Shown piece by piece: positions 27,056 through 63,058 of a stretch of 64,000 nucleotides of DNA. The DNA is from Streptomyces sp. 840.1 (GTDB lineage: Bacteria; Actinomycetota; Actinomycetes; Streptomycetales; Streptomycetaceae). The translations under genes and the position numbers were made by a program. The stretch spans positions 1,399,051 through 1,463,050 of the forward strand of contig NZ_RJUU01000002.1 in the NCBI RefSeq assembly GCF_003751445.1, given 5' to 3'. A model generated the notes under the pieces. The model saw nothing but the letters and a program-made list of their open reading frames with translations, was not told where the DNA came from and made no database searches. Position 1 is the first letter of the stretch; each line of letters starts with the position of its first letter.

Positions 27056-28642
27056 GTGCTTGATCACATGAACGTCGAAGATGATGAGCAGGGAGCTGGG
27101 CGGAAACGTGGCGCCAGGCGCCGGTGGGCGATAGGGGCCGGCGCCGTAGTCGCCGCGGCCGCGGTCGCGATCGGAGTGGCCGCGGCCCGGTCCGGGTCCC
27201 CGAACATCGCCGCACCGCATGCCTGCCATACCGCAGCCCACGGCACCGCTCCCGCCGGCGCCCCGGCCAAGGACGGCCGGACGCCGGCCGGCTCCGCGCC
27301 CGTCGCTGACTTCGACGGCGACGGTCACCCCGACCTGGCCATGGGAGCACTGGGCGACGTGGAGAACGCCTCCGCCGGCGGCAGCATCGCGGTGGCGTAC
27401 GGATCGGGCGACGGAACCGCTCTCGCCCGCTGCCAGTACCTCACGCAGAACGACGCCGCGATACCGGGCAAGGCCGACTACGAGGCGTACTTCGGGACCG
27501 ACGTGGTGGCCCGCGACCTCGACGGGGACGGCTACACCGACCTCGCCACCGCCGTCTTCGACGACGAACCGAGCGTGATCATCGTGTGGGGTTCCCCGGA
27601 CGGGCTGAAGAGCGGCGTCCGCGTACCGGGCGCGGGCAGCAGCCATGTCTCCTGGACGCTGGACCAGGCATTGGAGGAGCACCTCGTCGCCGGTGACTTC
27701 GACGGTGACGGGCATGCCGACCTGGTCTTCGGGCTCGGTTCCGGCAAGGGCCTGCTCAAGGGCCCTTTCACACGCTCCGGCACTCCGGCGGGCACTGGCC
27801 CGGTGACCGCACCGCGCCGGCCCGCACCGGGCATCGGCACCGCGAACTACTCCGGTCTCGTCGCCGGGGACCTGGACGGCGACGGTGCCGACGAGCTGAT
27901 CGCCTTCCACCACGATGAGCCCCTCGGAACAGCCAAGTCCGAGGAACGTTGGCCGGTCAGCTACTTCCGTGCCCGCAACGGCGGACTCGCCCAACCGGAT
28001 GACATCGACCTGCCCGACGCAGCGGCGGGCGCGGTCGGCGACGTGAACGGCGACGGCCTCGCGGACCTCGTGCTCAGCCCGAGGCGCGGCAAGGTGAGCC
28101 ACAGCTCGGTGACCGTCGTGTACGGCTCCGAGGCCGGCCCGACGAAGGGAAAGCGGCCGGTCACCATCGACCGCGACACCCCGGGCGTGCCCGGTGCGGA
28201 ACCCCAGGACAAGGACGCCGCCTTCGTCTCCCTGGACACCGGTGACGTCAATGGCGACGGCTACGCGGACGTGGTGGCCGGCTCACCCCGGAGCAAGGAG
28301 TACGCGAAGACGGGCCCGGAACAGGTGTTGCTCCTGCTGGGCGGTCCGAACGGTCCGACCGGTGAGGGGGCACAGGTCGTCGACGCGGGCGACATCGGCG
28401 GCAGGAAGAGCGCGCGAGCCACGTTCGGCATGTCGGTGCGCCTCACCGACATGGACGGCGATCACCGGGCCGACCTGACGGTGGCCGCGCCGGGCGACGA
28501 CAAGGTGCGCAGCTCCGCGTGGGTGCTGCCCGGCACGGGCCACGGGCTGGCGACCGACGGCGTCACCCGGCTGTACGGCGACACCTTCGAGCACACCGGC
28601 AAGCTGCGCCTCTACATGGGAGGCGGCGGGATCGCCCGCTAG
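27056..28642 (+). CDS. Membrane-anchored FG-GAP repeat protein
   Basis: A 528-residue protein starting at GTG 27056 (ATG 27068 also possible). A basic N-terminus is followed by one transmembrane segment at about residues 25-46, so the bulk is extracytoplasmic. At least seven FG-GAP/VCBS blades carry calcium-binding DxDGDG loops (ADFDGDGHPD, RDLDGDGYTD, GDFDGDGHAD, GDLDGDGADE, GDVNGDGLAD, GDVNGDGYAD, TDMDGDHRAD), predicting a seven-bladed beta-propeller like the integrin alpha head. Role is probably binding at the cell surface. Its TAG stop lies in the CTAG target copy of the adjacent IS element, which now separates the gene from its terminator. Confidence 0.9.
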   Translation: MLDHMNVEDDEQGAGRKRGARRRWAIGAGAVVAAAAVAIGVAAARSGSPNIAAPHACHTAAHGTAPAGAPAKDGRTPAGSAPVADFDGDGHPDLAMGALGDVENASAGGSIAVAYGSGDGTALARCQYLTQNDAAIPGKADYEAYFGTDVVARDLDGDGYTDLATAVFDDEPSVIIVWGSPDGLKSGVRVPGAGSSHVSWTLDQALEEHLVAGDFDGDGHADLVFGLGSGKGLLKGPFTRSGTPAGTGPVTAPRRPAPGIGTANYSGLVAGDLDGDGADELIAFHHDEPLGTAKSEERWPVSYFRARNGGLAQPDDIDLPDAAAGAVGDVNGDGLADLVLSPRRGKVSHSSVTVVYGSEAGPTKGKRPVTIDRDTPGVPGAEPQDKDAAFVSLDTGDVNGDGYADVVAGSPRSKEYAKTGPEQVLLLLGGPNGPTGEGAQVVDAGDIGGRKSARATFGMSVRLTDMDGDHRADLTVAAPGDDKVRSSAWVLPGTGHGLATDGVTRLYGDTFEHTGKLRLYMGGGGIAR

Positions 28643-29595
28643 GTGTATTGACCCGCAGCGTTGTTGACACGGCTGATGGGGGGCTGGCCTCCGAGGGCGG
28701 TGTGGCAGCGGTGGTGGTTGTAGGTGTGGAGGAAGTCTGCCAGGGCGGCTGTTCGCTCGTCGTTGGAGGTGTAGGGCCGCAGGTAGGCCCACTCGTCGGC
28801 GAGGGTGCGGTTGAAGCGTTCGACTTTGCCGTTGGTCTGTGGTCGGTAGGGGCGGGTGAGTTTGCCGGTCGCGCCGATGTCGCCCAAGGCCTGTTTCCAG
28901 GCCAGCCCCTTGCGGTAGGCCCAGGCGTTGTCCGTCAGCACGCGTTCGATCCGGGTGATGCCCAGGTCGGCGAAGAACGCGGCGGCCCGGGTCAGGAAGG
29001 CTGCGCAGGTCGCGACCCTCTCGTCGCCATGGATTTCCGTGTAGGCGGGGCGGGAGTGGTCGTCGACCGCGGAGTGGAGGTAGTCGAAGCCCATGTTGCT
29101 GCGGGTGGCGCGGCCGGCCTGGCGGCCCAGGACCTTGTGGCCGCCGCCGTCGGGTATCCGGCCCAGTTTCTTGACGTCGACGTGGACGAGCTCGCCGGGA
29201 CGCTCGCGTTCGTAGCGGCGGATCACCGAGCCGGTTGGCCGGTCCATCCAGGCGAGGCGGTTCAGTCCGTGACGGGTCAGGATCCGGTGGACGGTTGAGG
29301 CGGGAAGGCCGAGGACCGGGCCGATCCGTGCGGGTCCGAGTTTGCGGGACCGGCGCAGGTCGCAGACGCGGGCCTCGATCGCGGCCGGAGTGCGGTGCGG
29401 TGTCGTCCCTGGCCTGCTGGAGCGGTCGGCCAGGCCCGCCTCGCCCTCGGCCCGCCACCGCCGCACCCACTTATGGGCGGTCGCCCTCGAGATGCCCATC
29501 TCGGCAGCGACATGGGCGACGGGACGGCCGGACGTGACTCGTTCGACCAGCAGACGCCTCCCGAAGACCGTCAGCCGGGCATTACGGTGGGACAC
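28639..29595 (-). CDS. IS481-family transposase
   Basis: A 318-residue DDE transposase. An N-terminal helix-turn-helix (VAHVAAEMGISRATAHKW) precedes an rve-type catalytic core with Asp in HVDVKKLG, Asp in VLTDNAWAY and Glu in NGKVERFNR. I chose GTG 29595, 5 nt after GGAGG. The stop codon TAG (28641-28639) is not in the element but supplied by the flanking CTAG target copy. The gene is intact and probably functional. Confidence 0.93.
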   Translation of the reverse strand: MSHRNARLTVFGRRLLVERVTSGRPVAHVAAEMGISRATAHKWVRRWRAEGEAGLADRSSRPGTTPHRTPAAIEARVCDLRRSRKLGPARIGPVLGLPASTVHRILTRHGLNRLAWMDRPTGSVIRRYERERPGELVHVDVKKLGRIPDGGGHKVLGRQAGRATRSNMGFDYLHSAVDDHSRPAYTEIHGDERVATCAAFLTRAAAFFADLGITRIERVLTDNAWAYRKGLAWKQALGDIGATGKLTRPYRPQTNGKVERFNRTLADEWAYLRPYTSNDERTAALADFLHTYNHHRCHTALGGQPPISRVNNAAGQYT

Positions 29596-29695
29596 GAAGA
29601 CCTCCGTGTGGTGTGTTCCTAGACAGCTCCACCACACCGGAGGTCTTCGCCTTTGATCAAGACCCCCGTGTCAACAACGCTCGTGATCAATACAC
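28643..29695 (-). mobile_element. Intact IS481-family insertion sequence with CTAG target duplication
   Basis: 1053 bp bounded by imperfect inverted repeats: both ends read GTGTATTGA inward, and continue with the shared block AGCGTTGTTGACACGG. CTAG is present directly outside both ends (28639-28642 and 29696-29699), the expected 4-bp target duplication for this family. It carries one transposase gene read leftward. Clean ends and an open transposase suggest a recent insertion. Confidence 0.93.
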
Positions 29696-29706
29696 CTAGG
29701 GCCATT

Positions 29707-29751
29707 CGTTCGGATCAGGCCGGACCCCGCGCGCCCGGCCTGATCCGAACG
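29707..29751. terminator. Strong hairpin, former FG-GAP terminator
   Basis: Arms CGTTCGGATCAGGCCGG and CCGGCCTGATCCGAACG (17 bp, perfect) enclose an 11-nt loop. Without the IS element it would lie 7 bp after the FG-GAP stop. It is also downstream of convergent FKBP. Confidence 0.85.
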
Positions 29752-29772
29752 CGAGGCATTGCGCGACAGCTT

Positions 29773-30177
29773 TTAGGTGGGTTTACGGGCAGGAGGCCCG
29801 CCCACGACCGTGAGCAGGTCCACGACGAAGACCAGCGTCGAGCCCGCCGGGATCAACGAAGAGGGCGACTGCCTGCCGTAACCGAGACGCGGGGGAACGA
29901 TGATCTCGCGCCGGCCGCCGACCTTCATTCCCCTCACACCCCGGTCCCAGCCCTTGATGACCTTGCCACCGCCCACGGCGAACTTGAACGGCCGGTCCCG
30001 TTCCCAGGAGGAGTCGAACTCTTTTCCGGACGCGAAGGTGACCCCTACATAGTGAACCTGGACGACCCTGCCCGGCTGCGCCGTGGGCCCGTCCCCGATC
30101 ACGAGGTCCCGGATCGTCAGCTCGGTGGGCGGGTCACCCTCCGGAACCTCAATTCCGGGCTTCGTCAGTTCGCTCAT
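29773..30177 (-). CDS. FKBP-type peptidyl-prolyl cis-trans isomerase
   Basis: A 134-residue cytoplasmic FKBP, without a signal peptide. Active-site pocket residues are visible in VQVHYVGVTFASGKEFDSSW (Tyr, Phe, Asp) and in the segment KVIKGWDRGVRGMKVGGRR, with LGYG near the C-terminus. It speeds proline isomerisation during protein folding. Start ATG 30177 (MSELTKPGIEVP). Monocistronic, convergent with the IS. Confidence 0.94.
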   Translation of the reverse strand: MSELTKPGIEVPEGDPPTELTIRDLVIGDGPTAQPGRVVQVHYVGVTFASGKEFDSSWERDRPFKFAVGGGKVIKGWDRGVRGMKVGGRREIIVPPRLGYGRQSPSSLIPAGSTLVFVVDLLTVVGGPPARKPT

Positions 30178-30665
30178 CACAGTCCCATCGCTCGCCGCCG
30201 GATTCCCTTGCACGGGGAGGCGAGCCGCATGGACGTTCCGTGCGGCATCCGATCACGCTACCGGCAATGCCGAGGCTCCGAGGTGCGCCCCGTGCCACGG
30301 AACACGGCACCGGCATCCGAGGGGGTACCGGAGGCGATCCGGTCAGGGCGAGCCGGGGCCGAACCGGCTCGCGCACCTTGTCTTCGGCGTCTTAGTCCGA
30401 GGGAGGTGACGGTCCCTGCGGCCGACTTCAGGCGAACCTGTCCGAAATGGTCTCCCAGCAGGACGATCTCGATGCTGATCCGGATTTCGATGGGTCGTAC
30501 CCATGGATCCTTCGCGCCGATTGGTGCATTCTCCGCCCACCTGCACGGCGCGACACGCACCGAGTGGATTGCCGCAGTCCGAATCACGGCTCCCGCTTGT
30601 GCGGCGGCGAACAGGAAGTGGTACGCGGGCCGCCCGCGCACCGATATGAACTAGGAGGCATCCTC
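30178..30665. other. Divergent gap between FKBP and LLM genes
   Basis: 488 bp with no frame I accept. It contains a 15-bp palindrome, ATGGGT-cgt-ACCCAT at 30490-30504, lying about 160 bp before the LLM gene; this could be an operator. The rest is unremarkable. Confidence 0.45.
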
Positions 30666-31886
30666 ATGGAGTTCGGACTCTTCCTCAACGGATTCATTCC
30701 CGGCATGGCGGCTCACGACCGCTCCTGCGAACACCTCGCCCTGAAGCGGGAGATGGACCTCGCCATCAAGGCTGACAAGCACAACTGGAAGTACGTCTGG
30801 TTCGGTGAGCACCACTCGCTGACCGAGTACAGCCACATGTCGGCGCCCGAGGTCGTGATGGGCTACGTCGCAGCGAAGACCGAGCGGATTCACCTCGGCA
30901 CAGGCATCAACAGCCTTTCCCCGCGCAAGGAGCACCCGGTCCGCTTCGCCGAGCGGGCCGCGATGCTGGACCACATCACCGAGGGCCGCTTCGAATGGGG
31001 CACGGGGCGCGGCGCGGGAAGCCATGAGGTCGCCTCGTTCAACATCATGGACACGGCTTCGACCAAGGCCGAATGGGACGAGGTCGCGCCGGAGGTCGTG
31101 CGGATGTGGGAGCAGTACGACTACTCCTTCCACGGTGAGCACTTCACGGTTCCGACCCCGCACAACATCCTGCCGAAGCCGTACGGGCACTCGCACCCGC
31201 CGATCTGGATGGCTTGCGGCAACCCTTCGTCTTTCGCCAAGGCCGGATCGCTGGGCATCGGGGCGATCGCCTTCAACTTCGAGCCGATCTTCGAGCTGAA
31301 GGGCCGCATCGACTCCTACAAGGAGGCGGCCGCGAACCCGGTCCAGCTCCTCGGCGACTACCAGAACAACAACGTCATGATGACCAACACGGTCATCTGC
31401 CTCAACGACCGCAAACGGGCTCGTGAGATCGCCATGCACGCAGGTCTCGGCTACCTGGTCACTCTGGTCAACCTCTACCACGACACCATGCCGAAATCGA
31501 TGGACGAGAGGACGTGGCCGACCCCGCCGATCGCCTTCAGCGAGCTCGGCGGGGAAGAGATCCTCGACGAGATCATCAAGGCGGGCCTGTTGCTGTGCGG
31601 CACGCCCGACGAGGTCTGTGAACAGGTCGCCGCCTACCAGAGCGTTGGCTGCGACCAGTTGGTCTTCGGTATGACCGGCGGCATGTCCTTCGACGAACAC
31701 CTGGAGATGATCGAGATCTTCGGCGACAAGGTCGTCCCCGAGTTCGACACGAATCCGGAGCACTCCACCGCCGTCTACCGCCGGGGCGCGCAGGGGCCCA
31801 AGTACCCGTCGCACAGCCACCCTGTCCCCGCGGACCTCAAGCACACCGTGCTGCCGCCGAACGCGATCCTTCCGCTGGAGTCCTGA
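30666..31886 (+). CDS. LLM class flavin-dependent oxidoreductase (luciferase-like monooxygenase)
   Basis: A 406-residue TIM-barrel flavoprotein of the LuxA-like group. Visible are WFGEHHSLTEYSHMSAPEVVMGYVAAKTERI near the N-terminus, GTGRGAGSHE in the flavin phosphate region, and PPIWMACGNPSS before the insertion. It uses FMNH2 (or F420H2) supplied by another enzyme to oxidise an organic substrate. ATG 30666 is 8 nt after AGGAGG. The longer in-frame extension to 30447 is non-coding. No reductase lies next to it. Confidence 0.93.
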   Translation: MEFGLFLNGFIPGMAAHDRSCEHLALKREMDLAIKADKHNWKYVWFGEHHSLTEYSHMSAPEVVMGYVAAKTERIHLGTGINSLSPRKEHPVRFAERAAMLDHITEGRFEWGTGRGAGSHEVASFNIMDTASTKAEWDEVAPEVVRMWEQYDYSFHGEHFTVPTPHNILPKPYGHSHPPIWMACGNPSSFAKAGSLGIGAIAFNFEPIFELKGRIDSYKEAAANPVQLLGDYQNNNVMMTNTVICLNDRKRAREIAMHAGLGYLVTLVNLYHDTMPKSMDERTWPTPPIAFSELGGEEILDEIIKAGLLLCGTPDEVCEQVAAYQSVGCDQLVFGMTGGMSFDEHLEMIEIFGDKVVPEFDTNPEHSTAVYRRGAQGPKYPSHSHPVPADLKHTVLPPNAILPLES

Positions 31887-32965: not shown

Positions 32966-32982
32966 GTGCACTCACTCCTTCG

Positions 32983-34658: not shown

Positions 34659-34704
34659 CATGTCCTCGCTTCTCGTGCCCCCGGAGCGTTTCGTCCGCAC
34701 AGAG

Positions 34705-34898: not shown

Positions 34899-34945
34899 GC
34901 GGGGCTCTGCACGGGGGCAGACGACATTTACGGAGAGGCAGCGCC

Positions 34946-36259: not shown

Positions 36260-36844
36260 GTGACTCGGATCCGACAGCGGACCCACAGATCCACCGGTGT
36301 GGGGCGCGTGCTCGTCGCGCTGCTGATGGCGATTGCAGCGTGCGTGGCCACCGCGAGCTCGGCCGCCGCGGACGCCCGGCCGGGCTTCTCGGGCCAGGCG
36401 AGGGAGGCCGGGCTGAGCGGCGCGGAGGCCAGGGCCCTGCAAGCCGAGGTCGACGCCAACCTGGCCGAGTGGGGCGGGAAGCAGGTGTCCGCCAACAAGA
36501 TCAAGCTGACCGGCGGGGAGCTGACACTCGCGCTGCCGGGAGAGAAGTACGCCCGCGACCTCGGCGCGAAGGGCGGGGCACTGGCCGCCGGCAGCTGCCC
36601 CAGTACCTATGTGTGCGCGTACAAGGGGGAGAACTTCACCGGCACCCAGCTGAACTTCTTCACCTGCGGCACGCTCAACCGCATCACCTGGAACACGACC
36701 GGATCCTGGAGGAACGCCCAGAAGTCCACCTTGTACGCGAAGTTCTACAGCGAGGACAAGGTACTGCGCTGGACCTCTCCGGGCGGCTACAGCGAGGACG
36801 CCTCTGCGGACTGGAGATGGGTCTGGTACCTCAGCCCCTGCTAG
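36260..36844 (+). CDS. Secreted peptidase-inhibitor I36-type protein
   Basis: A 194-residue secreted protein. Residues 1-40 are a long twin-positive signal peptide ending AAADA. Residues 40-110 are a helical propeptide-like segment and residues 115-194 a beta-gamma-crystallin-like domain of the I36 type, with paired cysteines (SCPSTYVCAYKGENFTGTQL, FFTCGT) and a terminal Cys. I36 proteins inhibit metalloproteases in Streptomyces; many relatives have unknown roles. GTG 36260 follows GGAGGGG. Its TAG stop is part of CTAG followed by an IS5-like end. Confidence 0.85.
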   Translation: MTRIRQRTHRSTGVGRVLVALLMAIAACVATASSAAADARPGFSGQAREAGLSGAEARALQAEVDANLAEWGGKQVSANKIKLTGGELTLALPGEKYARDLGAKGGALAAGSCPSTYVCAYKGENFTGTQLNFFTCGTLNRITWNTTGSWRNAQKSTLYAKFYSEDKVLRWTSPGGYSEDASADWRWVWYLSPC

Positions 36845-36864
36845 GGCGTGTTTTGAAAGTCCCG
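36841..36864. repeat. Solitary IS5-like end at CTAG
   Basis: CTAG followed by GGCGTGTTTTGAAAGTCCCG directly overlaps the stop of the I36-type gene. Its first 11 bases are identical to the right outer end of the dead IS5 element at 62.5 kb read inward (CTAGGGCGTGT), and this motif is familiar at ends of Streptomyces IS5-family elements. No partner end or transposase is nearby, so it may be a remnant or a natural target. Confidence 0.4.
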
Positions 36865-36930
36865 TCTGCCGGGCGGCGTCTGGCACGCACTCTCGTACTC
36901 CAGCGGCACTTCGTGGCCGTCAGCGCCCGA

Positions 36931-36964
36931 GCAGGGGCCCGGACCGTACGGCCCGGGCCCCTGC
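36931..36964. terminator. Hairpin between convergent I36 and AbgT genes
   Basis: Arms GCAGGGGCCCGG and CCGGGCCCCTGC (12 bp, perfect) with a 10-nt loop that is itself partly palindromic. Positioned to serve both convergent genes. Confidence 0.75.
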
Positions 36965-37044
36965 GCAACGCGTCCTGGGGCGAGTGGTGCGAGTCCGCCG
37001 TGTCGTGCTGGACAGTGCACAAAAGGCGTCGCAGGCACGGTGGT

Positions 37045-38604
37045 TCAGCGCACCGGTGCCCCGGGGCCGAGTGGAATTCCCAGTGCCCACCAGGCGAGGA
37101 ACAGCAGCGTCCAGGTCACCGTCATGGCGATCGCCAGCGGCAGCGTGTACGCGGCGAGGGTGCCGATGCCCGCGTCCTTGCGGTAGCGCTGGAGGAAGCC
37201 GAGGGCCATCACGAAGTACGGGCTCATCGGGGTGATGGCGGTCGAGCCGGAGTCCGCGATGCGGAACAGGGCCTGCGTCGTCTCGGCCGGGACGTGCGCC
37301 AGCATCAGCATCGGTACGAGGACGGGCGCGGCCAGGGCCCACATCGCGGAGCCGCTGGTCACCATGACGTTGACGACGGTCAGCAGGAGCAGGATCAGCA
37401 GGAAGACGACGACGATCGGCATTCCGCTGTGCTCCAGGAGTTCGGCCGCCCGTACCGCGAGCACATCGCCGATGTGCGTCCAGTCGAAGTAGGCGAGGAA
37501 CTGGGCGATCGCGAAGAACAGGACGAGCACCGGCGCCATCTGCTTCACGCCCGCCGCCATCAGCTTCGGTACGTCGCCGGGCTTCGCGATCGACCCCGAG
37601 CTTGCCCCGTACACGATGCCGGTGAGTGCGAACAGAATGGCCACGACCGCCGCGATGCCCTCGATGAACGGAGACTCGACGATGCTGCCGCCGTCCCCGC
37701 GCAGGGGAGAGGACGTGGGGGCGAGTGCCGCCACGACCAGCACCAGACCACCGCCGAGCGCGAGCAGGGCCCGCCGCAACGCGGACCGTTCGCGCTCGCT
37801 GATTTCCAGCGTGCCGAGGTCCTCGACATCGGCGTCGGGATCCGGGTCGAGATCGGGTCGCTTGGCGAGCACCCAGCGCGTGACCAGCGTGATGACGGTG
37901 GCGAGCAGCAGGGAGGAGGCGATGTTGAAGAACCAGTTGGACAGGGGCGACACGTATGCGTCGTCGCCCCCCGTGATCTTCGCGGCAGCGGTGGTGATGC
38001 CCGCGAAGATGGCGTCGTTCGGCGTGGGTACCGGGCTAGCGTCGTAGCCGGAGGCGATCGACGTGTAGGCGACGACGATGCCGAGGATGGGGGAGCGGCC
38101 CACGGCGCGGAAGGCGAGCCCGCCGAGCGGTACCAGGATGATGTACGCGGCGGCCGATGCGACGTGCGCGACCGTCCCGGCGAACGCGACGGCGAACACC
38201 ACCCACGACGCGGGCACCCGTGCGACCCCGACCTTCATCGCGGCGGACAGGAATCCGCTGCGCTCGGCGACGGCGACGCCCATGATGACGACCACGATCG
38301 TCGCCATCGGCGGGAACTCGGCGAAGTTCGACACCATCGTCGACACCGCCATCGCGAGTCCGTCGCCGCTGAGCAGGTTCTGCACGACGACCGTCTTGTG
38401 GTCGGCGGGCGACACCACGGACACGCCGAACCCGGCGAGCACGGCGCTGACGACGGCGAGCACCGCCGACAGGATCCAGAACAGCCAGAACGGGTGCGGC
38501 AGTGCGTTGCCCGCGCGCTCGACGACTCCGAGGGCGCGGATCACGAAGGGCAGCTGCGCCGCCCCGGCCCCGGCGGGGGAGGGGGCCTCTCTCTGTACGG
38601 TCAT
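37045..38604 (-). CDS. AbgT family transporter
   Basis: A 519-residue membrane protein of the p-aminobenzoyl-glutamate transporter family, with about 11 transmembrane segments and two re-entrant hairpins. Markers are GNALPHPFWLFWILSA at the first helix, the conserved GYDASPVPTPNDAIF loop, and SGSTAITPMSPYFVMAL near the C-terminus. Family members import p-aminobenzoyl-glutamate or export sulfonamides. It starts 15 bp after the esterase stop and is the last gene of the leftward GntR operon, so its substrate may be a product of the secreted esterase. Confidence 0.93.
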   Translation of the reverse strand: MTVQREAPSPAGAGAAQLPFVIRALGVVERAGNALPHPFWLFWILSAVLAVVSAVLAGFGVSVVSPADHKTVVVQNLLSGDGLAMAVSTMVSNFAEFPPMATIVVVIMGVAVAERSGFLSAAMKVGVARVPASWVVFAVAFAGTVAHVASAAAYIILVPLGGLAFRAVGRSPILGIVVAYTSIASGYDASPVPTPNDAIFAGITTAAAKITGGDDAYVSPLSNWFFNIASSLLLATVITLVTRWVLAKRPDLDPDPDADVEDLGTLEISERERSALRRALLALGGGLVLVVAALAPTSSPLRGDGGSIVESPFIEGIAAVVAILFALTGIVYGASSGSIAKPGDVPKLMAAGVKQMAPVLVLFFAIAQFLAYFDWTHIGDVLAVRAAELLEHSGMPIVVVFLLILLLLTVVNVMVTSGSAMWALAAPVLVPMLMLAHVPAETTQALFRIADSGSTAITPMSPYFVMALGFLQRYRKDAGIGTLAAYTLPLAIAMTVTWTLLFLAWWALGIPLGPGAPVR

Positions 38605-38619
38605 GATGGCGGCTCCGAA

Positions 38620-39591
38620 CTAGCGCGGCGGGGAGGGGAGTTGGTGATCGCGGAAGAACGCCCACATCACCTTGTGGGCCTGGATCGTCTGCGTGGTGCA
38701 GCCGCCGCCGCTGTAGCCGTCGGCGCCCGGCCAGGTGTGCCCGCCGTCGGTGACGGCGACGTGCGCCACCTCCGCGCCGCCGGCGCAATCGGCCCACCGT
38801 GACGTTGTGATGTCGGGCTCGGTCACCTTGTCGGCTGCCCGGGTGCGGCAGCCGTCCCGGTCGGCCCACTCGCGCACCCACTCCTGGACCGCGGGCAGCC
38901 CGCGGTCGGCATCACCCGCGTACGGGATGGTTGCGTCGCCGGTGCCGTGGAAGTCGAGGACGGGCATCGGGCGCTCCGGGTCGCAGCCGCCCTCGCGCGT
39001 ACCGGGGTAGAACGCACCGGCGACCGGTGCGACGGCCGCGAAACGGTCGGACATCCGGCAGGCGAGCAGGCCGGTGAACCCGGCACCGTTCGACTTGCCG
39101 GTGGCGTACACCCGCCGCTCGTTCACGCACAGCGAGCCCTCCAGCGAGTCGAGGAGTTCCCCGGTGAACGCGACATCGTCCACGCCGGCCGCCGCGTACG
39201 GAGCGCCCTGCCACGCCTGCCGCTCGCCGTCGCCGGTGCCGACGACGCCGTTCGGGTAGGCGACGATCGCGGACAGGGTCGACAGGCGCGAGAAAGCCTC
39301 TGTGCCCGCGCCGGTGTTGCCGCGCCCGTGGAAGGCAATGATCAGCGGCCAACTGTGCTTCGGCGTATAGCCGTCGGGGAGGTGCAGCTGGTAGGTGCGC
39401 TCGCGGCCGCCGCTGCTCAGGGTGTGCAGGACACTGCTGCCCGGCTGCTGCGGGGCGGTGGCGCCGCAGCCTTCGGAGCGCGGGGATGCGGCAGGGTGCG
39501 CGGGGTGTGCCGGGTTCGCGTGGGCGGGGGCGAACGGGACGGCGACGAGCGCGGCGGCCAGTATGCAGGCACGCCGAAGTAGACCCTTCAT
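38620..39591 (-). CDS. Secreted PHB-depolymerase-like / feruloyl-esterase-like alpha/beta hydrolase
   Basis: A 323-residue secreted esterase. Signal peptide residues 1-25 (ends AHA). The oxyanion region is IAFHGRGNTG, the nucleophile Ser is in GKSNGAG (an atypical second residue of GxSxG), the acid is in DFHGTGDATIPY and the catalytic His in GGHTWPG. Cysteine pairs suggest disulfides. The LpqC/esterase-PHB group cleaves polyester or feruloyl esters outside the cell. Located in an operon with a creatininase-like enzyme and AbgT transporter. Confidence 0.9.
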   Translation of the reverse strand: MKGLLRRACILAAALVAVPFAPAHANPAHPAHPAASPRSEGCGATAPQQPGSSVLHTLSSGGRERTYQLHLPDGYTPKHSWPLIIAFHGRGNTGAGTEAFSRLSTLSAIVAYPNGVVGTGDGERQAWQGAPYAAAGVDDVAFTGELLDSLEGSLCVNERRVYATGKSNGAGFTGLLACRMSDRFAAVAPVAGAFYPGTREGGCDPERPMPVLDFHGTGDATIPYAGDADRGLPAVQEWVREWADRDGCRTRAADKVTEPDITTSRWADCAGGAEVAHVAVTDGGHTWPGADGYSGGGCTTQTIQAHKVMWAFFRDHQLPSPPR

Positions 39592-41142: not shown

Positions 41143-41143
41143 A

Positions 41144-43464: not shown

Positions 43465-44997
43465 ATGCGGGGGCAGACGGTGGGGCGACCTCTAGGGACG
43501 TTCAAGGGGCGGACGCCACAGGCCGATGCCTTCGCCCGCTGGCTCAGGGAGATCACGAAGGGCGTGACGGTACGCTCGCTCGAGGAGCACTTTCCCTACG
43601 GCAAGTCCTCTTGGAGCGGGTTCCGTGACGGCAGCCGCCTGCCCAGCCGAGCCCTCGTGGAGCAGGTGACTGGACGGTACCTCCGGGAACCTGCCCTGCG
43701 GGAAAGACAGCTGGTGCAGGGAATGCACCTGCTGGAAGCGGCTCAACAGGCCGCCAAGGACTTGGAGAACGGCTTAGTCCGGCCGGCTCCGCTTCCTGGC
43801 CCCCGGTTCAGGGCGGCCGACCCCATGGCTGAGGCATGGCTGCGGCTTGACGATGCGCGACAGAGGCAGATCGACGCCATGCAGAAGCTTGCAGTTTCTG
43901 AACGTCGGCGCGAGAAGCTGGAAGACATGGTCTCCGTGCTGGAAGAACGCTGCATCCTGCTTGAGGGTGAACGCGACCGGGCACGTGAAGATGCTCAAGC
44001 GGAGCTCCAGCACGAACTGCAGATGTCCACCGAGTACCGGCGCCAGGCCGACCAGAAGCTTGATCACGCCCGCCGGGCCGAAGTCCGCGCGTACCAACTG
44101 CGGCTGGCGGCCGAGCGGCAGGTGACGATAGAGCGGATAGCCCTTCGGCAACTGGATCCGGACATCACGCCAGGCATCCCTCCGCTCTCGGGAAACTCGG
44201 TGGCCCAAGAGCTGGACCTGCCGCCGCTCGACCAGATTCATGAACTCCTCAACGCTGTCCAGGAACAGCTGGACGCCCAGGACGACGAGCTGAACGATCT
44301 CGACGATCAGATCGACCTCGGGGCCAGGCAGCAGGCGCGGGACGCGCCGCGGACGGCTTCCCGCATAGTCCAGGGGCGTCTGGTGGAGGACACCGAAGCC
44401 GAGGGAAGTCCCGGAAAAGGCCGGGACAACCCCAGAAAACCTCTGACCGGCAGAAACGAGGAACAGGCTACCGGCGACGAGTTCGATCCGGACGAAGCGC
44501 ATACGGATCACCAGCCACTGGAGGGCCTGGGTGCTCAGCCGGCGGAGCTGGTAATCGGCCTCAAGACCGCAAGCACGCCGGCGGCCCTGTCCACCGCGCT
44601 GTCGCAGCTGCGCCAGCGCACCCCGCGTACCGAACGACGGTCGATCAGCGATCTGACACAGGCGGCATTCCCGGGACGGCTCAAGGACGACCTGGTCCTG
44701 ATGACTGTCATGCGCTGGATCGACGGCGACGTTCTGCCGGACACGTGGCTGCACCTGCAGGCCCTCGTCCGAGCGCTGGGCGCCACAGACCGTGAAGTGA
44801 ATGCCTTCCAGGAGGCCTACATCCGAACGATCGATGCGCACCTGCCGGGAAGAGCCTCATTTCACGACCTCTCTGACCTCCCGGTACCTGCTCGCAGGCT
44901 GGCGGGGATCGGCAGAGGGGTCGTGCGCCGACGGAACCCGATCGCTGTGGTTCTCAGTGAGCGTTTCGTTCTCCGATGTCTGTTTCATTTGGTCTAG
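43465..44997 (+). CDS. Helix-turn-helix/coiled-coil protein with IS-replaced C-terminus
   Basis: About 510 residues from ATG 43465 (ATG 43372 is in frame but its extra residues look non-coding). Residues about 15-80 form a helical DNA-binding-like domain (ADAFARWLREITKGVTVRSLEEHF... SRLPSRALVEQV) of a type fused to many Streptomyces effector proteins. Residues about 130-235 are a long coiled coil, then an acidic Asp/Glu-rich linker and a C-terminal helical domain of about 100 residues. The last residues (from about LSERFVLRC) lie inside the IS5 inverted repeat, so the natural C-terminus is lost; a hydrophobic tail remains beyond the IS at 46080-46127. Role unknown. Confidence 0.75.
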   Translation: MRGQTVGRPLGTFKGRTPQADAFARWLREITKGVTVRSLEEHFPYGKSSWSGFRDGSRLPSRALVEQVTGRYLREPALRERQLVQGMHLLEAAQQAAKDLENGLVRPAPLPGPRFRAADPMAEAWLRLDDARQRQIDAMQKLAVSERRREKLEDMVSVLEERCILLEGERDRAREDAQAELQHELQMSTEYRRQADQKLDHARRAEVRAYQLRLAAERQVTIERIALRQLDPDITPGIPPLSGNSVAQELDLPPLDQIHELLNAVQEQLDAQDDELNDLDDQIDLGARQQARDAPRTASRIVQGRLVEDTEAEGSPGKGRDNPRKPLTGRNEEQATGDEFDPDEAHTDHQPLEGLGAQPAELVIGLKTASTPAALSTALSQLRQRTPRTERRSISDLTQAAFPGRLKDDLVLMTVMRWIDGDVLPDTWLHLQALVRALGATDREVNAFQEAYIRTIDAHLPGRASFHDLSDLPVPARRLAGIGRGVVRRRNPIAVVLSERFVLRCLFHLV

Positions 44998-46078
44998 GTG
45001 TCGCGCCAGTTGAGGGTGGTCTCGTGGGTGAGGCGGCGGGTCATGAGGTTGATGGCGGCCAGCTGGATCATGGCTGCTGATCGGTGGGGGTGGGTTTCGT
45101 AGTCGCGGGCGAGGCGGCGGTGGTGCATGAGCCAGCCGAGGGTGCGTTCGATGACCCATCGGCGTGGCTGGACGTGGAAGCCTCTGGTGGTGGGGTCGCG
45201 TTGGACGATCTCGAGGTCGATGCCGAGGTGGGCGGCGTGTTCGACGGCTTTGGTCTTGTAGCCGTTGTCGGCCCAGGCTTTGCTGATCGTTGGGTGGAGT
45301 GCGGCGACCTTGGTCATGAGCTGGGTGCCGGCCGCGGAGTCGTGGACGCTCGCGGCGGTGACGGCGACGGCCAGGAGGAGGCCGAGGGTGTCGGTGACGA
45401 TGTGCCGTTTGCGTCCGATGATCTTCTTGGCCGGGTCGATACCTTGGCTGGTCAGGGGGACGGTGGCGGAAGTCTTGATGCTCTGGCTGTCGATCAGGCA
45501 GGCGCTGGGCTGGCTCGCGCGGCCTTCGGCCTTGCGGACCTTGCCGCGGAGGATGTTGGTGAGCTGGTCGAAGATGCCGTCGGCTTCCCAGCGGGCGAAG
45601 TAGCCGTAGACGGTCTGGTGGGGTGGGAAGTCGTGGGGGAGGTAGCGCCAGGGAATGCCGGTGCGGTCGACGTAGAGGATGGCGTTCATCAGGGTGCGTA
45701 GGTCGTGGGTGGGCTTGCGGATGCCGGCGCGGGCCTGGCGCCAGGCTTCCAGCGTGGGGCGGATGAGTTCCCAGCGGGCGTCGGACAGGTCGCTGGGGTA
45801 GGACTGTGAGGGCTGCATGATGCCTGGGTACGCGGCGGCAGCCGACCTGGGCAGGGCGTGCGGCGAGGCATCCGGGGCACCAGGGCGCGAGTGCGCAGAC
45901 CCGCATGAACCAGGTTGCTTCTGAATGAGACGGGATCTCTCATCAGAAACCCGGTGCATTACTGGTCCACGGATTGCCGTATAAGCCACTTCCCCGGCGA
46001 ATCACCGCTCAGGGGACTTCGCTTGACCGCTCAGAATCGCAGCCAAACACCTGATATGCGAACCAAACGCTCACTCAG
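44953..46078 (-). mobile_element. IS5-family insertion sequence
   Basis: About 1126 bp bounded by imperfect inverted repeats: left CTCAGTGAGCGTTTCGTTCTC and right, read inward, CTGAGTGAGCGTTTGGTTCGC, matching at 18 of 21 positions. It carries one transposase read leftward. A target duplication is not resolved: GTGG flanks both sides but would leave the repeats offset by 2 bp. The ends are therefore approximate to a few bases. Confidence 0.7.
44994..45818 (-). CDS. IS5-family transposase
   Basis: A 274-residue DDE transposase with the DUF4096-like N-terminus (LSDARWELIRPTLEAW), then Asp in ACLIDSQSIKT, Asp in WADNGYKT, and the Y-(2)-R-(3)-E-type block in WVIERTLGWLMHHRRLARDYE. It is open throughout, from ATG 45818 (MQPSQSYPSDL). 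The stop codon uses the CTAG at 44994-44997, which also gives the stop of the convergent coiled-coil gene. Confidence 0.93.
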   Translation of the reverse strand: MQPSQSYPSDLSDARWELIRPTLEAWRQARAGIRKPTHDLRTLMNAILYVDRTGIPWRYLPHDFPPHQTVYGYFARWEADGIFDQLTNILRGKVRKAEGRASQPSACLIDSQSIKTSATVPLTSQGIDPAKKIIGRKRHIVTDTLGLLLAVAVTAASVHDSAAGTQLMTKVAALHPTISKAWADNGYKTKAVEHAAHLGIDLEIVQRDPTTRGFHVQPRRWVIERTLGWLMHHRRLARDYETHPHRSAAMIQLAAINLMTRRLTHETTLNWRDT

Positions 46079-46079
46079 T

Positions 46080-49813: not shown

Positions 49814-49814
49814 C

Positions 49815-56011: not shown

Positions 56012-56048
56012 GACGGTGGCTCCCAACGAAGGTGTACGAGCGTGAAGT

Positions 56049-57305: not shown

Positions 57306-57352
57306 GCGAAGACTTCTTCCCGTACGAGGAGCGGTGGGGTTGGTGGGTGGGG

Positions 57353-58575: not shown

Positions 58576-58649
58576 GGGAGTTCTCCTCAACGACGTGGGT
58601 GGGGGTGGGCCGTATCAAGGCCGGGGGAAGGAGCGGTGTGCGCCGGGGT

Positions 58650-59056
58650 TCAGCCGGTGGCCGGTTTGGCGGTGTATTCCTCGTCGGTGACGGGGTTCAG
58701 CCAGTACACGACGTCGTGGGTGTCATCGCCCTCGTTGATGGCCAGGTGGACCATCAACCGGGTTCGGGGCGGCGCCGTACCAGTGCTCCTCGTCGGCTTC
58801 GAACAGGACGCGGTCACCGGGCCGGACGACTTCCACCGGGCCGCCGCGGCGCTGGCACAGGCCGACGCCTTCGGTGACGTCTGGCCCAAGGGGCGGCGGG
58901 GCCAGTGAGTGCGGGCGCCGGGCATGAAATACACCATGGACGCGCTGACCCGGGACGGGGCGGGCGCGGGGCGGCCACGGGGTCGATGTAGACGTCGCCG
59001 GTGAACCAGTCTGCCGGGCCCTTGATGGTGTCGATCGAGCTGCGGGTGGTCTGCAC
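58650..59056 (-). pseudogene. Frameshifted cupin gene
   Basis: Pieces of one cupin lie in three frames: MQTTRSSIDTIKGPADWFTG then VYIDPVAAP in one; MVYFMPGARTHW in a second; DVTEGVGLCQRRGGPVEVVRPGDRVLFEADEEHWYG in a third; and MVHLAINEGDD to the end of the gene back in the second. Together they spell a normal cupin of about 130 residues including both metal motifs, so at least three indels are needed. Either a dead gene or clustered sequence errors. Confidence 0.8.
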
Positions 59057-59080
59057 GGTTGCTCCTTGTGGGGTAGGGGG

Positions 59081-60097
59081 TCAGGGCTTGAGGAGGGTTT
59101 TGATCGCACGGCGCTCGTCCATCGCCTTGTAGCCCTCGGCGACCTGCTCCAGGGGCAGGGTGAGGTCGAAGACCTTGCCGGGGTCAATCCGGCCCTGAAG
59201 GACGCGGTCGATCAGATCGGGGAGGTAGCGGCGTACGGGGGCGGGGCCGCCGCGCAGGCCGACGTGGGAGAAGAACAGTTCCTGTCCGTCGACGGCGACC
59301 TCGTGGGGGACGCCGACGAAGCCGACGTTGCCGCCGGGCCGGGCGGAGTGCAGGGCCTGGCTCATGGCCTGAGCCGTGCCGACGCACTCCAGGACCGAGT
59401 CGGCACCAATCCCCCCGGTCAGCTCCTTGATCCGGGCCACACCTTCCTCACCGCGCTCGGAGACGATGTCGGTGGCGCCGAACTCGCGCGCCAGCTTCTG
59501 GCGGGAGGTGTGCCGTGACATGGCGATGATGCGCTCCGCGCCCAGCTCCTTGGCCGCGATCACTCCGCACAGGCCGACCGCGCCGTCGCCGACGACCACG
59601 GCGGTCGAGCCGGGCCTCACCTCGGCGGCGTCCGCGGCCCACCAGCCGGTGCCCATCACGTCGGACACGGCAAGCAGAGCGGGCCACAGATTCTCGCCCG
59701 GCACGTCCTCGGTGGCGACCAGGGTGCCTTGGGCGTTAGGAATGCGGACATACTCGGCCTGGCAGGTGGACATGAACTCGCGGCTCAGGCAGTTCGACTG
59801 GAAGCCGTTGCGACAGTTCGCGCAAGTGTTGTCCGAGGTGGCGAACGAGCCAACAACGAATTGGCCCGGCTTCACCGAGGTGACCGCAGATCCGACCTCC
59901 TCGACGAAGCCGACGTACTCGTGGCCCATGGGATGTGAGTGCTCCGTCGGCTCCGCGCCGCGATAGGGCCACAGGTCGGAACCGCACACGCAGGTCACAG
60001 CCGTCCGGATGACAGCGTCGGTCGGCTTGAGGATCTTGGCATCGTCCACGGTCTCGAACCGGATGTCACCGGGGGCGTGGATCACTGCTCCGCGCAT
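59081..60097 (-). CDS. Zinc-dependent alcohol dehydrogenase (MDR superfamily)
   Basis: A 338-residue medium-chain dehydrogenase. Catalytic zinc ligands Cys38 (CVCGSD) and His59-Glu60 (GHEYVGFVEE) are present; the structural-zinc loop shows Cys92, Cys95 and Cys103, one fewer cysteine than usual. The NAD(P) motif is VVVGDGAVGLCG, and the opening MRGAVIHAPGDIRFE is typical of glutathione-dependent or tetrahydro-type members. First gene of the leftward run; divergent from XRE regulator 60362. Confidence 0.93.
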   Translation of the reverse strand: MRGAVIHAPGDIRFETVDDAKILKPTDAVIRTAVTCVCGSDLWPYRGAEPTEHSHPMGHEYVGFVEEVGSAVTSVKPGQFVVGSFATSDNTCANCRNGFQSNCLSREFMSTCQAEYVRIPNAQGTLVATEDVPGENLWPALLAVSDVMGTGWWAADAAEVRPGSTAVVVGDGAVGLCGVIAAKELGAERIIAMSRHTSRQKLAREFGATDIVSERGEEGVARIKELTGGIGADSVLECVGTAQAMSQALHSARPGGNVGFVGVPHEVAVDGQELFFSHVGLRGGPAPVRRYLPDLIDRVLQGRIDPGKVFDLTLPLEQVAEGYKAMDERRAIKTLLKP

Positions 60098-60305
60098 GAG
60101 GAAAGCTCCTTGCCTGCTGAAGCCTGCCGACGCCGGGAGGGTTCCGGCAGGCCACCGAATGGGTGAGGGCCCCGGTGCAGACAGCGATTCCGCCGCCTGC
60201 GGGCCCAGGGGGCCCGGCGCCCGGCCCACCCGCTGTGACAGGCGGACGGCCAGCGCCACGTCAACCAGGTAACTCCCATCCCGCGCGGACAGCGAGTCAC
60301 TGACG

Positions 60306-60330
60306 AGGGGTGTACCAGCAGTACATCCCT
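60306..60330. promoter_or_regulatory. Palindromic operator between XRE regulator and dehydrogenase
   Basis: AGGGGTGTAC and GTACATCCCT match as complements at 9 of 10 positions around a 5-bp centre. It lies 31 bp before the XRE start and in the divergent promoter region of the dehydrogenase operon. Confidence 0.6.
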
Positions 60331-60361
60331 CCCATCCCGGGCAGGCCGTACCGTCGAATGC

Positions 60362-61258
60362 ATGGACAACCGCGAGGAGGTCCGCGAGTTCCTCACCTCG
60401 CGGCGAGCCAAGATCACCCCCCAGCAGGCCGGACTGCCGGCAGGCCCCCGACGCCGGGTTCCCGGCCTTCGCAGAAGCGAGGTCGCTGCCCTGGCCGACA
60501 TGAGCGTCGAGTACTACGCCAAGCTCGAACGCGGCAACCTCGCCGGCGTCTCACCGTCCGTCTTGGAAGCTCTCGCCAGGGCCCTTCAGCTCGATGACGC
60601 CGAACGCGCCCACCTGCTGAACCTGGCCCAGGCCGCCGACGGATCCGACGTCCTCAACCGCCCCCGCCGACGGCGTACGAAGGACCAGTGGCGGCCGCAC
60701 CGCAGCCTGGAATGGACCTTGGACGCCATCACCGCAGGTCCCGCGTTCGTCCGCAACGGCCGTATGGACATCCTGGCCGCCAACCCGCTCGCTCGCGCCT
60801 TCTACGCCGACGTCTACGCCGCCCCCGGCAACCAGGCGAACCTCGCCCGCTTCAACTTCCTCGACCCCGCCTCGCGCCGCTTCTACCCCGACTGGGACCT
60901 CTTCGCTGACGTCGCCGTGGCCATCCTGCGCACCGAAGCCGGGCGAAATCCGCACGACAAGGACCTGCACGACCTCGTCGGCGAGCTGTCCACCCGCCGC
61001 GAAGAATTCCGCACCCGCTGGGGCGCCCACAACGTCCGCCACCACGGCACCGGCACCAAACGCTTCCACCACTCGGCCGTCGGAGAGCTCACCCTCGCCT
61101 ACGAGGGCCTGGAAATGGCCGCCGAACCCGGCCTCACCCTCACCATCTACACCGCCGAACCCGGCTCACCCTCCGAAGAAGGACTGCGCCTGCTTGCCTC
61201 CTGGGCTGCCACCCAGAACAGCGACATCCCCTCCACCACAGAGAACGCGGGCCGGTAG
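60362..61258 (+). CDS. XRE-type regulator with MmyB-like ligand domain
   Basis: A 298-residue regulator. The N-terminal XRE helix-turn-helix covers about residues 10-75 (VPGLRRSEVAALADMSVEYYAKLERGN), followed by the MmyB-like PAS-related ligand-binding domain (NGRMDILAANPLARAFYADV ... RFNFLDPASRRFYPDW). Such Streptomyces proteins control a divergent oxidoreductase operon and respond to fatty acids or small hydrophobic ligands. Divergent from the alcohol dehydrogenase run, with a palindrome between. Confidence 0.94.
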   Translation: MDNREEVREFLTSRRAKITPQQAGLPAGPRRRVPGLRRSEVAALADMSVEYYAKLERGNLAGVSPSVLEALARALQLDDAERAHLLNLAQAADGSDVLNRPRRRRTKDQWRPHRSLEWTLDAITAGPAFVRNGRMDILAANPLARAFYADVYAAPGNQANLARFNFLDPASRRFYPDWDLFADVAVAILRTEAGRNPHDKDLHDLVGELSTRREEFRTRWGAHNVRHHGTGTKRFHHSAVGELTLAYEGLEMAAEPGLTLTIYTAEPGSPSEEGLRLLASWAATQNSDIPSTTENAGR

Positions 61259-61375
61259 CGACACCACGCCGGGCAGCTGAGCCACAAAGAACCATGGTGC
61301 TCGGCGCGGATCTGGTCGACGACGAGCGCCACTTCGCGGTCCTCTCGTGGCGGTGTTCACGGGAGGTGCCCAGCT

Positions 61376-61571
61376 TCAATCGGGCACTCGTCTGGTTTCT
61401 CGCGGGCCCAGAAGCCGGGTGACCTGCTGAGCCGCTGCGAGTTCTTCGCGGGCCTGCTCCAGCTCCAGGGACAGCTCGGTGGCGGCACGTACCAGTGCGC
61501 GAACCCATTCGCGCTCCGCTGTGAGGTCTGTCTTGACTTTCGCCAGGGCGTCGCGCAGGGGGGTGTTCTAG
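61376..61571 (-). pseudogene. C-terminal fragment of a coiled-coil protein, cut at an IS end
   Basis: On the minus strand an open frame without start codon reads NTPLRDALAKVKTDLTAERE, then EWVRALVRAATELSLELEQA and AREELAAAQQVTRLLGPRE to a TGA at 61378-61376. It is strongly helical and coding-like, but its 5' end stops exactly at the CTAG flanking the IS5 remnant. The missing upstream half is not on the other side of the IS, so deletion or recombination has joined unrelated segments. Family not identified. Confidence 0.6.
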
Positions 61572-62521
61572 GCGCTGTCCGGCGGATCATGGGCGGAGCC
61601 GTAAGCGGACTGCCGCTGCGGTGACCGTGCCGTGGAAGACGTAGGCCCTCTTGTCGTAACGGGTCGCGACAGCGCGGGAGTTATTGAGTCGGTTGATGGT
61701 CCGCTCGACCTCGTTGCGCCGCCGGTAGCGCTCGCGGTCGAAGCCGGCAGGTCTGCCGCCCGCGCTGCCTCTGCGCCGACGGTTGGCCCGCTGGTCCTTC
61801 GGCTCGGGGATTGTGTGCTTGATGCGCCGTCTTCGCAGGTAGCGGCGGTTTCGGCGGGAGCTGTAAGCCTTGTCGCCGCTGACGTGAGCGGGCCTGGTCC
61901 GGGGATGCCCGACCAGCGGGCGGGGAACCCGAATCCGGTCCAGGACTTCGATCATCTGCGGGGCGTCACCCCACTGACCTGGAGTGATCAGTAGAGCCAT
62001 GGGGCGGCAGCCGCCTTCACCGGCGAGGTGGATCTTGGAGGTCGGACCGCCCCGGGACCGTCCGAGTCCCTCATCGGGGCGGTGGTGCCGGGGCGTCGTC
62101 CTTTCTTCGGGACCCGCAGCCTGGCCTTGCGGGCGCCGGCCGCGTGCTGGTGGGCCCGGCAGGACGTCGAGTCGACGCCGACCATGCCCCAGTCGATCCG
62201 CCCCGCCAGGTCGGCGTCGGCCTGGACCGCGCGCAAGAGCCGGTCCCAGGTGCTGTCCGCCGACCAGCGGCGATGCCGTTCATAGATGGTCTTCCACGAG
62301 CCGTAGCGTTACGGCAGATCACGCCACGGAATACCGGTGCGGACCCGGAACAGAATCCCGTTCAGCACGGTCCGGTGATCCTTCCACCGGCCGCCCCTGG
62401 CCACCCGGCGAAGGCAGATGCGGCTCCAGCAGCGACCACTCGCGATTCGTCAGATCCCCCCGACCCATGACCCAACCAACGAGCGACCGGTCGGAAAGTC
62501 GCATGATCCGCCGGACACGCC
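61572..62521 (-). mobile_element. Degenerate IS5-family element with CTAG flanks
   Basis: About 950 bp. Both ends carry the repeat TGTCCGGCGGATCATG read inward (17 of 20 terminal bases match), and CTAG lies immediately outside each end (61568-61571, 62522-62525). The transposase inside is broken, so the element is dead in its own right. Confidence 0.85.
61587..62504 (-). pseudogene. IS5-family transposase pseudogene
   Basis: A DUF4096-type N-terminus ([24 protein letters not shown]) starts at ATG 62504. Lesions: a frame change near 62390; a TAA (62311-62309) where CAA/CAG is expected in WRDLP*RYGSWKT; and a second frame change near 62085. DDE-region pieces are still recognisable (IDWGMVGVDSTSCRAHQ; SGDKAYSSRRNRRYL; NEVERTINRLNNSRAVATRYDK). 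Not functional. Confidence 0.88.
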
Positions 62522-63058
62522 CTAGGCCTGCTGCTCCAACGCGTCGGCGAAGGCGCGAAGGGCATCTGCCAGCTCCTGCTTGCTCGGCAGCTCATCCACC
62601 TTCTTCTCCAGACCGTCGATGCGCGCCGTCAGGTCCTCCAGGCTCGGCGGAGCCGTCGGAGGCGACGTGGGCTCCGGGGATCCCGACGGTTCGCCGCCCC
62701 CGACCGAACCCGCCGAACTCGTGCCCGCGGCACTGCCCCCGTCGTTGGAGCCCTCGTCGGTGCCACCCGAACCACTGTCGGAGCCCCCGTCGGTGCCACC
62801 CGAACCACTGACGGAGCCCCCGTCGGTGGCACCCCCGTCTGTACCACCCGAACCACTGATCGAGCTCCCGTCCCCGCCGCTCGTGACGCCAGCGATCCCC
62901 CCACCAGGTGTCTCCTCCGACACCGAAGTCGGACCGGAGCGTCTTCCATCTTCATCAGCCACGGCAATCGCCCCGCCGACACCCAGCAGCACCGCCGCGG
63001 CCACGCCCACCAGTGCCACTCTCGTCCGCCGCGCCTGAATCTTCCCCGAATACGTCAT
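62522..63058 (-). CDS. Secreted or membrane-anchored Gly/Ser/Asp-repeat protein
   Basis: A 178-residue protein. A basic start and hydrophobic segment (TRVALVGVAAAVLLGVGGAIAVA) at about residues 12-34 act as signal anchor. Residues about 45-125 are low-complexity, with imperfect copies of SGSGGTDGG. Residues about 130-178 form a helical tail (SLEDLTARIDGLEKKVDELP...ADALRAFADALEQQA), a likely coiled-coil assembly module. Its TAG stop is the CTAG that flanks the IS5 remnant. Role unknown; similar proteins may be wall-spanning linkers. Confidence 0.7.
   Translation of the reverse strand: MTYSGKIQARRTRVALVGVAAAVLLGVGGAIAVADEDGRRSGPTSVSEETPGGGIAGVTSGGDGSSISGSGGTDGGATDGGSVSGSGGTDGGSDSGSGGTDEGSNDGGSAAGTSSAGSVGGGEPSGSPEPTSPPTAPPSLEDLTARIDGLEKKVDELPSKQELADALRAFADALEQQA

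Follow-up and report, generated by a model that had tools for sequence, protein, structure and literature searches.

The safe-site strategies known from transposons depend on host factors, on tRNA genes or on conserved sites. In this work, we describe elements of two insertion sequence (IS) families, IS481 and IS5, whose target is the tetranucleotide CTAG and whose insertion site can coincide with the TAG stop codon of a host gene. We analysed a stretch of 64,000 nucleotides from Streptomyces sp. 840.1 (contig NZ_RJUU01000002.1, positions 1,399,051 to 1,463,050; hereafter the window), which belongs to a Streptomyces-type genome of 8.84 Mb (G000). Across Streptomyces and related genomes, IS481 insertions are found at host stops more often than the background of CTAG sites predicts, and so are miniature inverted-repeat transposable elements (MITEs) with IS5-like ends. 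IS481 of Bordetella pertussis targets NCTAGN. In work by Fournier, Paulus and Otten from 1993, the CTAG target of IS870 of Agrobacterium vitis, a member of a family other than IS481, is said to supply the stop codon of the element's open reading frame (ORF).

The closest described system is TnRErm46/ISRe46, an IS481-family element of Rhodococcus equi reported in 2019. It inserts at NCTAGN, and the TAG ends its transposase as well as some of the target genes, which are left intact (PMC6794481). Like the IS481 element of the window, TnRErm46 generates a 6-base-pair (bp) NCTAGN duplication and uses one CTAG to stop both transposase and host gene. In contrast to the window's element, which carries no cargo genes, TnRErm46 does, and the available sections of the report present single cases, with no test against a CTAG background and no wider motif (PMC6794481). 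The qualitative core, one CTAG stopping transposase and host gene, is thus already known from this transposon. What is new is the effect size, an extended target that is aligned with the codon phase, and the involvement of MITEs.

Further members of both families share parts of this pattern. ISLxc2 and ISLxx4, IS481-family elements of Leifsonia xyli, likewise duplicate NCTAGN and have their transposase stop inside the host site, but the overlap with a host stop is not discussed in the available part of that report (PMC2516522). IS481 members are described as mostly producing 6-bp duplications (PMC10045372). IS5 of Escherichia coli resembles the IS5 elements considered here in its 4-bp target, of which CTAG is the commonest version (15 of the 24 listed); in that system, however, insertion is tied to stress-induced duplex destabilisation and regulatory regions, and not to stop codons (PMC5493358). 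An IS5-group element with CTAG repeats is also described from Mycobacterium shottsii (PMC9241763). The same two families occur side by side in the same genus on one Streptomyces plasmid, as IS1649 (IS481-like) and IS1373 (IS5-like), both from annotation only. In searches of the open-access literature, we found no report of an excess of host stops over the CTAG background or of a wider target motif.

One CTAG, two stop codons

The IS481-family element of the window lies at 28644..29694 on the minus strand, between a left target copy GCTAGG (28638..28643) and a right copy CCTAGG (29695..29700). Its ends read TGTATTGA and TCAATACA; the terminal inverted repeats begin with TGT, and TGTATTGA... is present at both ends, as expected of the family. 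The transposase ORF (28639-29637, minus strand) contains the Pfam domains rve_3 (5.6e-19) and LZ_Tnp_IS481 (8e-13), which place it in IS481. The element itself does not encode a stop codon. Its transposase frame closes with the codon A-N-C, in which N and C are contributed by the target, and translation is terminated by the TAG of the target (28639..28641, minus strand), as had been read from the sequence in a first-pass annotation. A relative at locus L108 sits at a CTAC target, which supplies no stop, and here the transposase frame extends to 443 residues.

On the opposite strand, an FG-GAP repeat gene (27056..28642, plus strand; Pfam FG-GAP, 2e-36) ends in a TAG at 28640-28642 that lies in the same target, so that the host stop and the transposase stop overlap on one CTAG palindrome. 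Orthologues of this gene at loci L381 (81% identity) and L382 (79%) share this terminal CGC TAG but carry no IS481 element. This means that the FG-GAP stop is native and older than the insertion. By eye, the stop CTAG of the L382 orthologue precedes 27 bp that resemble an IS5-type end, after which comes a second CTAG; another element with a CTAG target may have made use of this stop there.

In the window, one base distinguishes the left target copy from the right (5/6 match), whereas the 6-bp duplication is perfect in 135 of 152 distinct IS481 insertions; flank exchange between IS copies or mutation are possible causes. Four further IS481 copies with 99% protein identity to the window's are present in the same genome. 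To the right of the element, positions 29700-29765 form a 66-bp palindromic repeat, possibly terminator-like, which has relatives at several other loci, some of them belonging to the GTTTGGATCA MITE family.

The first-pass annotation had listed four places in the window where a host gene ends in a CTAG next to an IS or IS-like end or, at the fourth, about 41 bp inside one, and had proposed a safe-site strategy shared by two IS families. Three of the genes do end at a CTAG beside an element end, at 28639, 36841 and 62522; the fourth place, 44994, is not such a case. At two of these places an element flanked by CTAG has inserted at the TAG stop of a host gene, namely IS481 at 28644-29694 and an IS5 element at 61572-62521. 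The accompanying assumption that CTAG is rare was borne out in the window, with 26 occurrences against 72 expected from dinucleotide shuffles.

Stop-codon excess of IS481 insertions

Relatives of the IS481 transposase were gathered from Streptomyces and related genomes, which gave 152 distinct insertions. The empty site of every insertion was reconstructed and its CTAG classified with our own codon-usage gene caller. As control we used the remaining CTAGs of these loci together with those of 20 stretches from other places in the genus, classified likewise. Tested on three annotated plasmid stretches of 40 kb, the caller recovered 82 of the 95 annotated stops and called 88 in total, 82 of which agreed with the annotation; it missed the Gly/Ser-rich protein gene of the window. 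The loci contained 208 IS481 matches, 50 of which were at first partial or without recognised ends. A looser search recovered 29 further distinct sites by their duplications, and 25 matches stayed unused. A search for the IS481 subfamily returned one partial new copy, the rest being already in the set, and a search of the window's own genome with an end pattern gave no match.

The core of the 135 perfect duplications is CTAG in 131 cases, CTAA in three and CTAC in one, so that the CTAG group duplicates NCTAGN. After removal of 17 sites without a perfect duplication, four with a non-CTAG core and two with flanks below 600 bp, 129 insertions remained. Of these, 58 lie at a host stop, compared with 183 of 793 control CTAGs (P=8e-7). 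When 48 insertions beside a MITE or IS5-type end and three beside another IS481 were also taken out, and control CTAGs adjoining such ends with them, the resulting clean set showed a larger difference (38/78 versus 121/692, P=4e-9). The 29 recovered sites formed a second set, from which one with a poor end and one with a short flank were dropped. In 24 of the remaining 27 the transposase is 56-59% identical to that of the window; 17 of the 27 are at stops, as are 11 of the 18 left once nine non-clean sites were set aside.

In the combined clean set from genome contigs, 49 of 96 IS481 insertions coincide with a called host stop, as do 121 of the 692 control CTAGs (odds ratio (OR) 4.9, P=6e-12). 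This set is not purely chromosomal: one insertion, L022, is the same as plasmid locus L406, and another, L178, lies on a 75-kb contig. The excess holds within genomes (OR 4.05, P=3e-7, with 90 of the 96 sites usable), bootstrapping over genome clusters puts the difference in stop share at 0.23-0.43, and three gene-caller thresholds give similar values (OR 4.8-5.0). In stretches away from insertions, 9 of 60 clean CTAGs are stops. In the window's own genome, non-clean flanks included, five of nine other IS481 copies with a perfect CTAG duplication are at stops.

A trivial account would be that CTAG, being rare in GC-rich genes, is mostly a stop or intergenic, so that any CTAG element lands there. 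About 84% of clean control CTAGs do lie outside called genes (108 of 692 are inside), and such a base rate would be compatible with the full-length IS5-type elements (7/26 at stops, P=0.20) and with the plasmids described below. However, the control set already consists of CTAGs, and rarity of CTAG alone therefore fails as an explanation. With 121 of 692 controls at stops, compared with 49 of 96 IS481 insertions and 19 of 26 MITEs, a pure base rate is rejected for IS481 on genome contigs and for MITEs, and as a general account we regard it as extremely improbable. The comparison that was to decide whether the window's pattern is chance thus yields an excess for IS481 and for MITEs, for which the pattern is not chance, and no significant excess for full-length IS5-type elements, so that the class to which the window's full-length IS5 belongs is unproven.

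IS481 is also frequent at CTAGs that already adjoin a MITE or IS5-type end. This holds for 48 of 129 insertions, for example L090, L091, L096, L099 and L100, compared with 94 of the 857 remaining CTAGs. Ends starting with GGCCTGTC would supply a good IS481 half-site, which could lead to elements stacking on one CTAG. In Streptomyces, the CTAG at the end of a gene is often a hub of this kind, with IS481, IS5-type elements and MITEs piled up at a single site.

Extended target, codon register and selection

The target of IS481 extends beyond the CTAG. It is a palindrome of approximately SnnGSNCTAGNSCnnS, which is present away from stops too. Counting outward from the CTAG, A and T are avoided at positions 0, 1, 2 and 5 on both sides, with G favoured at position 2. 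Inside genes, insertions have A/T at positions 2 and 5 in 4% and 4% of cases (control 26% and 36%), and intergenic ones in 16% and 13% (control 40% and 33%). The non-coding, downstream side of stops shows the preference at position 1 (P=0.007) and position 2 (P=0.046), and not at 5. Since it appears intergenically, largely inside genes and in part downstream of stops, the preference is not merely a trace of codon structure. Where a gene ends in C|TAG, the bases at positions 2 and 5 occupy the wobble position of their codons, and A/T amounts to 8% and 14% there at control stops.

A model that uses four positions of the flanks and was trained solely on insertions away from stops predicts a stop share of 0.416 (0.36-0.48). 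With promoter and gene-interior terms added the prediction rises to 0.45, compared with 0.51 observed and 0.175 in the control. The flanking-sequence model thus covers roughly 70% of the IS481 stop excess, a share that depends on the model, and selection probably supplies the rest. Among CTAGs where both half-sites are good, the stop share of insertions does not differ significantly from that of controls (22/40 versus 28/57, P=0.68). Regional GC content alone was rejected as a predictor, as it gives 0.22 at stops.

We therefore consider it probable, with some reservation, that the IS481 stop excess arises mostly from an extended target that matches codon wobble composition, with selection added. 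In this mechanism, IS481 of Streptomyces duplicates 6 bp at NCTAGN while reading a wider palindromic target. The CTAGs at stop codons of GC-rich genes are good targets by composition, as the statistics show, because the wobble bases before C|TAG match the positions that demand G or C. It follows from the structure of the site that the duplication rebuilds the host stop and spares the gene. Insertions that hit promoters or useful genes would be selected against, adding to the excess. If this is true, a short target matching the wobble register steers insertions to stops without extra machinery while the duplication restores the stop, and one can predict where such elements accumulate unnoticed.

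Several results weigh against this explanation. The excess persists at CTAGs with one good half-site (21/44 versus 58/272) or none (6/12 versus 35/363). A residual stop effect is left after adjustment, with an OR of 2.3 when the core alone is considered (P=0.0015) and of 1.6 with all terms (P=0.1), and when applied to each side separately, the model gives a lower value than is seen (0.148 versus 0.286). Stops missed by the caller could have leaked codon structure into the non-stop training set. Genomes also differ: one of five clean sites is at a stop in G092 and none of two in G067, compared with four of five in both S. lavendulae and G101. Among plasmid insertions, the motif is present at position 1 (P=0.006), is weak at position 2 (P=0.08) and is missing at position 5 (P=0.67). 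The sequence model does not account for the MITEs, with 0.13 expected and 0.50 observed per side. Our confidence is slightly reduced by the excess at CTAGs with fewer than two good half-sites and by the result for full-length IS5-type elements.

The residual OR of 1.6-2.3 and the excess at CTAGs with fewer than two good half-sites are what one would expect if the elements actively targeted gene 3' ends, through termination, supercoiling or a protein partner, with the stop codon as the peak. The number of insertions per control CTAG would fit as well, since it is 0.41 at the stop itself, drops to 0.25 at distances of up to 30 bp (5 versus 20) and to about 0.1 farther away, and is 0.025 where no 3' end faces the site. 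Most of the excess nevertheless goes with the flanking sequence, there is none among CTAGs with both half-sites, no orientation bias is seen, and the excess does not appear on plasmids. We consider such targeting improbable. Orientation coupling of transposase and host gene was rejected in its own right (34 versus 33).

Plasmids bear on the part played by selection. From 40 of the 67 matching plasmid records, 25 insertion loci were taken among the better matches. Without one duplicate, three loci with imperfect duplications and four without ends, 17 remained, including three with non-clean flanks. Stops are not significantly in excess among these 17 IS481 insertions (2/17 versus 5/64 control CTAGs), a comparison of low power as there are few stop CTAGs. 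Seven of the 17 lie inside genes, compared with 12 of 96 on genome contigs. The two sets differ in stops (P=0.003) and in gene interiors (P=0.009), also when the insertion common to both is left out (P=0.005 and 0.02). The lack of a significant stop excess on plasmids counts against target sequence as the main cause and implicates selection as well.

Taken to the extreme, selection would explain everything: elements would insert at any CTAG, and only harmless insertions would persist, leaving those at stops and in convergent gaps. Apart from the contrast between plasmids (7/17 inside genes, 2/17 at stops) and genome contigs (12/96 and 49/96), this pure survivorship would account for the avoidance of divergent promoter gaps, which hold five insertions for 198 control CTAGs while convergent gaps hold seven for 49, and for the outer sides of MITEs, which lie inside a gene in 1 of 125 cases against 216 of 1384 controls. 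Gene interiors on genome contigs, however, are not depleted (12/96 versus 108/692), tandem and convergent stops are struck alike (25 versus 67 controls and 24 versus 52; P=0.61), and the flanking-base preference is also present inside genes. In addition, recent copies are equally enriched, with near-identical young multi-copy bursts at stops in 19 of 32 cases and others in 30 of 64; an equal excess among young copies fits an effect at insertion. Survivorship alone is a possible account, but in our judgement a rather unlikely one.

The extended target, matched by codon composition, thus probably yields most of the IS481 excess, and the data do not establish the proposed safe-site strategy. Gene interiors on genome contigs hold as many insertions as the control predicts, and on plasmids, where seven of 17 insertions lie inside genes, the excess at stops was not seen. 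We are doubtful that the IS481 target preference has been tuned to codon phase as a sequence-encoded safe-site strategy that requires no host factor, with MITEs matching the outcome.

MITEs and IS5-type elements

Three MITE families with IS5-like ends gave 36 two-ended copies with CTAG on both sides, and 10 of these were set aside as they lie beside an IS481 element. Of the other 26, 19 are at a host stop, seven are intergenic and none lies inside a gene. Counted by outer side, the stop share is 62 of 125, against 124 of 1384 control sides. One copy, L204, adjoins a variant IS481 end that the filter missed, so one of the stops is possibly that of a transposase. An earlier pair count (36/67 at stops) was inflated by transposase stops of adjoining IS481 elements and is not used.

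For full-length IS5-type elements (longer than 700 bp, with CTAG, inverted ends and clean flanks) the seven of 26 at stops do not differ significantly from the 121 of 692 controls; 15 others are intergenic and four lie inside genes. Restricting the elements to those with IS5-like ends gives 6 of 21. The stop excess of the IS5 family therefore rests on MITEs, through which alone the claim of a pattern shared by two IS families holds. As the sequence model explains little of the MITE excess, retention at gene ends, through harmlessness or use of a hairpin, is the better guess, and selection would probably dominate here. One MITE folds into a long hairpin. Judged by their CTAG target and end sequences, the MITEs may be mobilised by an IS5-family transposase. 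Ends of the GTCGTGTCCGCAAAGTC type (at most one mismatch) have 25 matches in genome G042 and 39 in G017, and six of 61 genomes searched have any; an overly strict MITE pattern had matched just 4 of 199 genomes.

The window holds a solitary MITE end. A peptidase-inhibitor I36-type gene (36260..36844, plus strand; Pfam Inhibitor_I36, 6.5e-6) ends in CTAG and is followed at 36845..36895 (plus strand) by GGCGTGTTTTGAAAGTC..., the end of a dispersed MITE family. Over the 55 bp from 36841, CTAG included, the sequence shares 94.5% identity with a copy of this dispersed MITE end at another place in the genome, in agreement with the earlier description of a host stop next to a solitary IS5-like end. 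A second MITE end was absent from 36861-38700 in a search allowing up to five substitutions, so the site at 36845 has one end only and lacks the inverted ends with CTAG on both sides; full copies exist elsewhere. In five of six other genomes, I36-type homologues align to the last residue.

The IS5-family element at 61572..62521 (minus strand) is 950 bp long and has the ends GCGCTGTCCGGCGGATCATG and GGCGTGTCCGGCGGATCATG. Its DDE_Tnp_1 domain (4e-10) and the CTAG on both sides, at 61568..61571 and 62522, assign it to the family; a single frame holds only part of the domain. The element adjoins the TAG stop (62522-62524) of the Gly/Ser-rich protein gene (62522..63058, minus strand), which was recognised from sequence and homologues. 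These homologues align to residues 175-177 of 178, except for one partial second match, which upholds the assignment of the stop beside the IS5. A second copy of the element, at G000:C1:5258872 (L094), is likewise at a called stop.

At the fourth site, an IS5/DUF4096-type element spans 44952..46079 on the minus strand (Pfam DUF4096, 5e-28; inverted repeats 17/20; ends approximate). The CTAG at 44994 lies about 42 bp inside this element, and we rejected it as a CTAG insertion. The coiled-coil gene proposed to end there extends into the IS and is therefore altered rather than spared.

Just past the CTAG left of the IS5 at 61572-62521, the minus strand of 61400-61571 resembles, by eye, the interior of a coding region. 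The two flanks of this element may come from two places.

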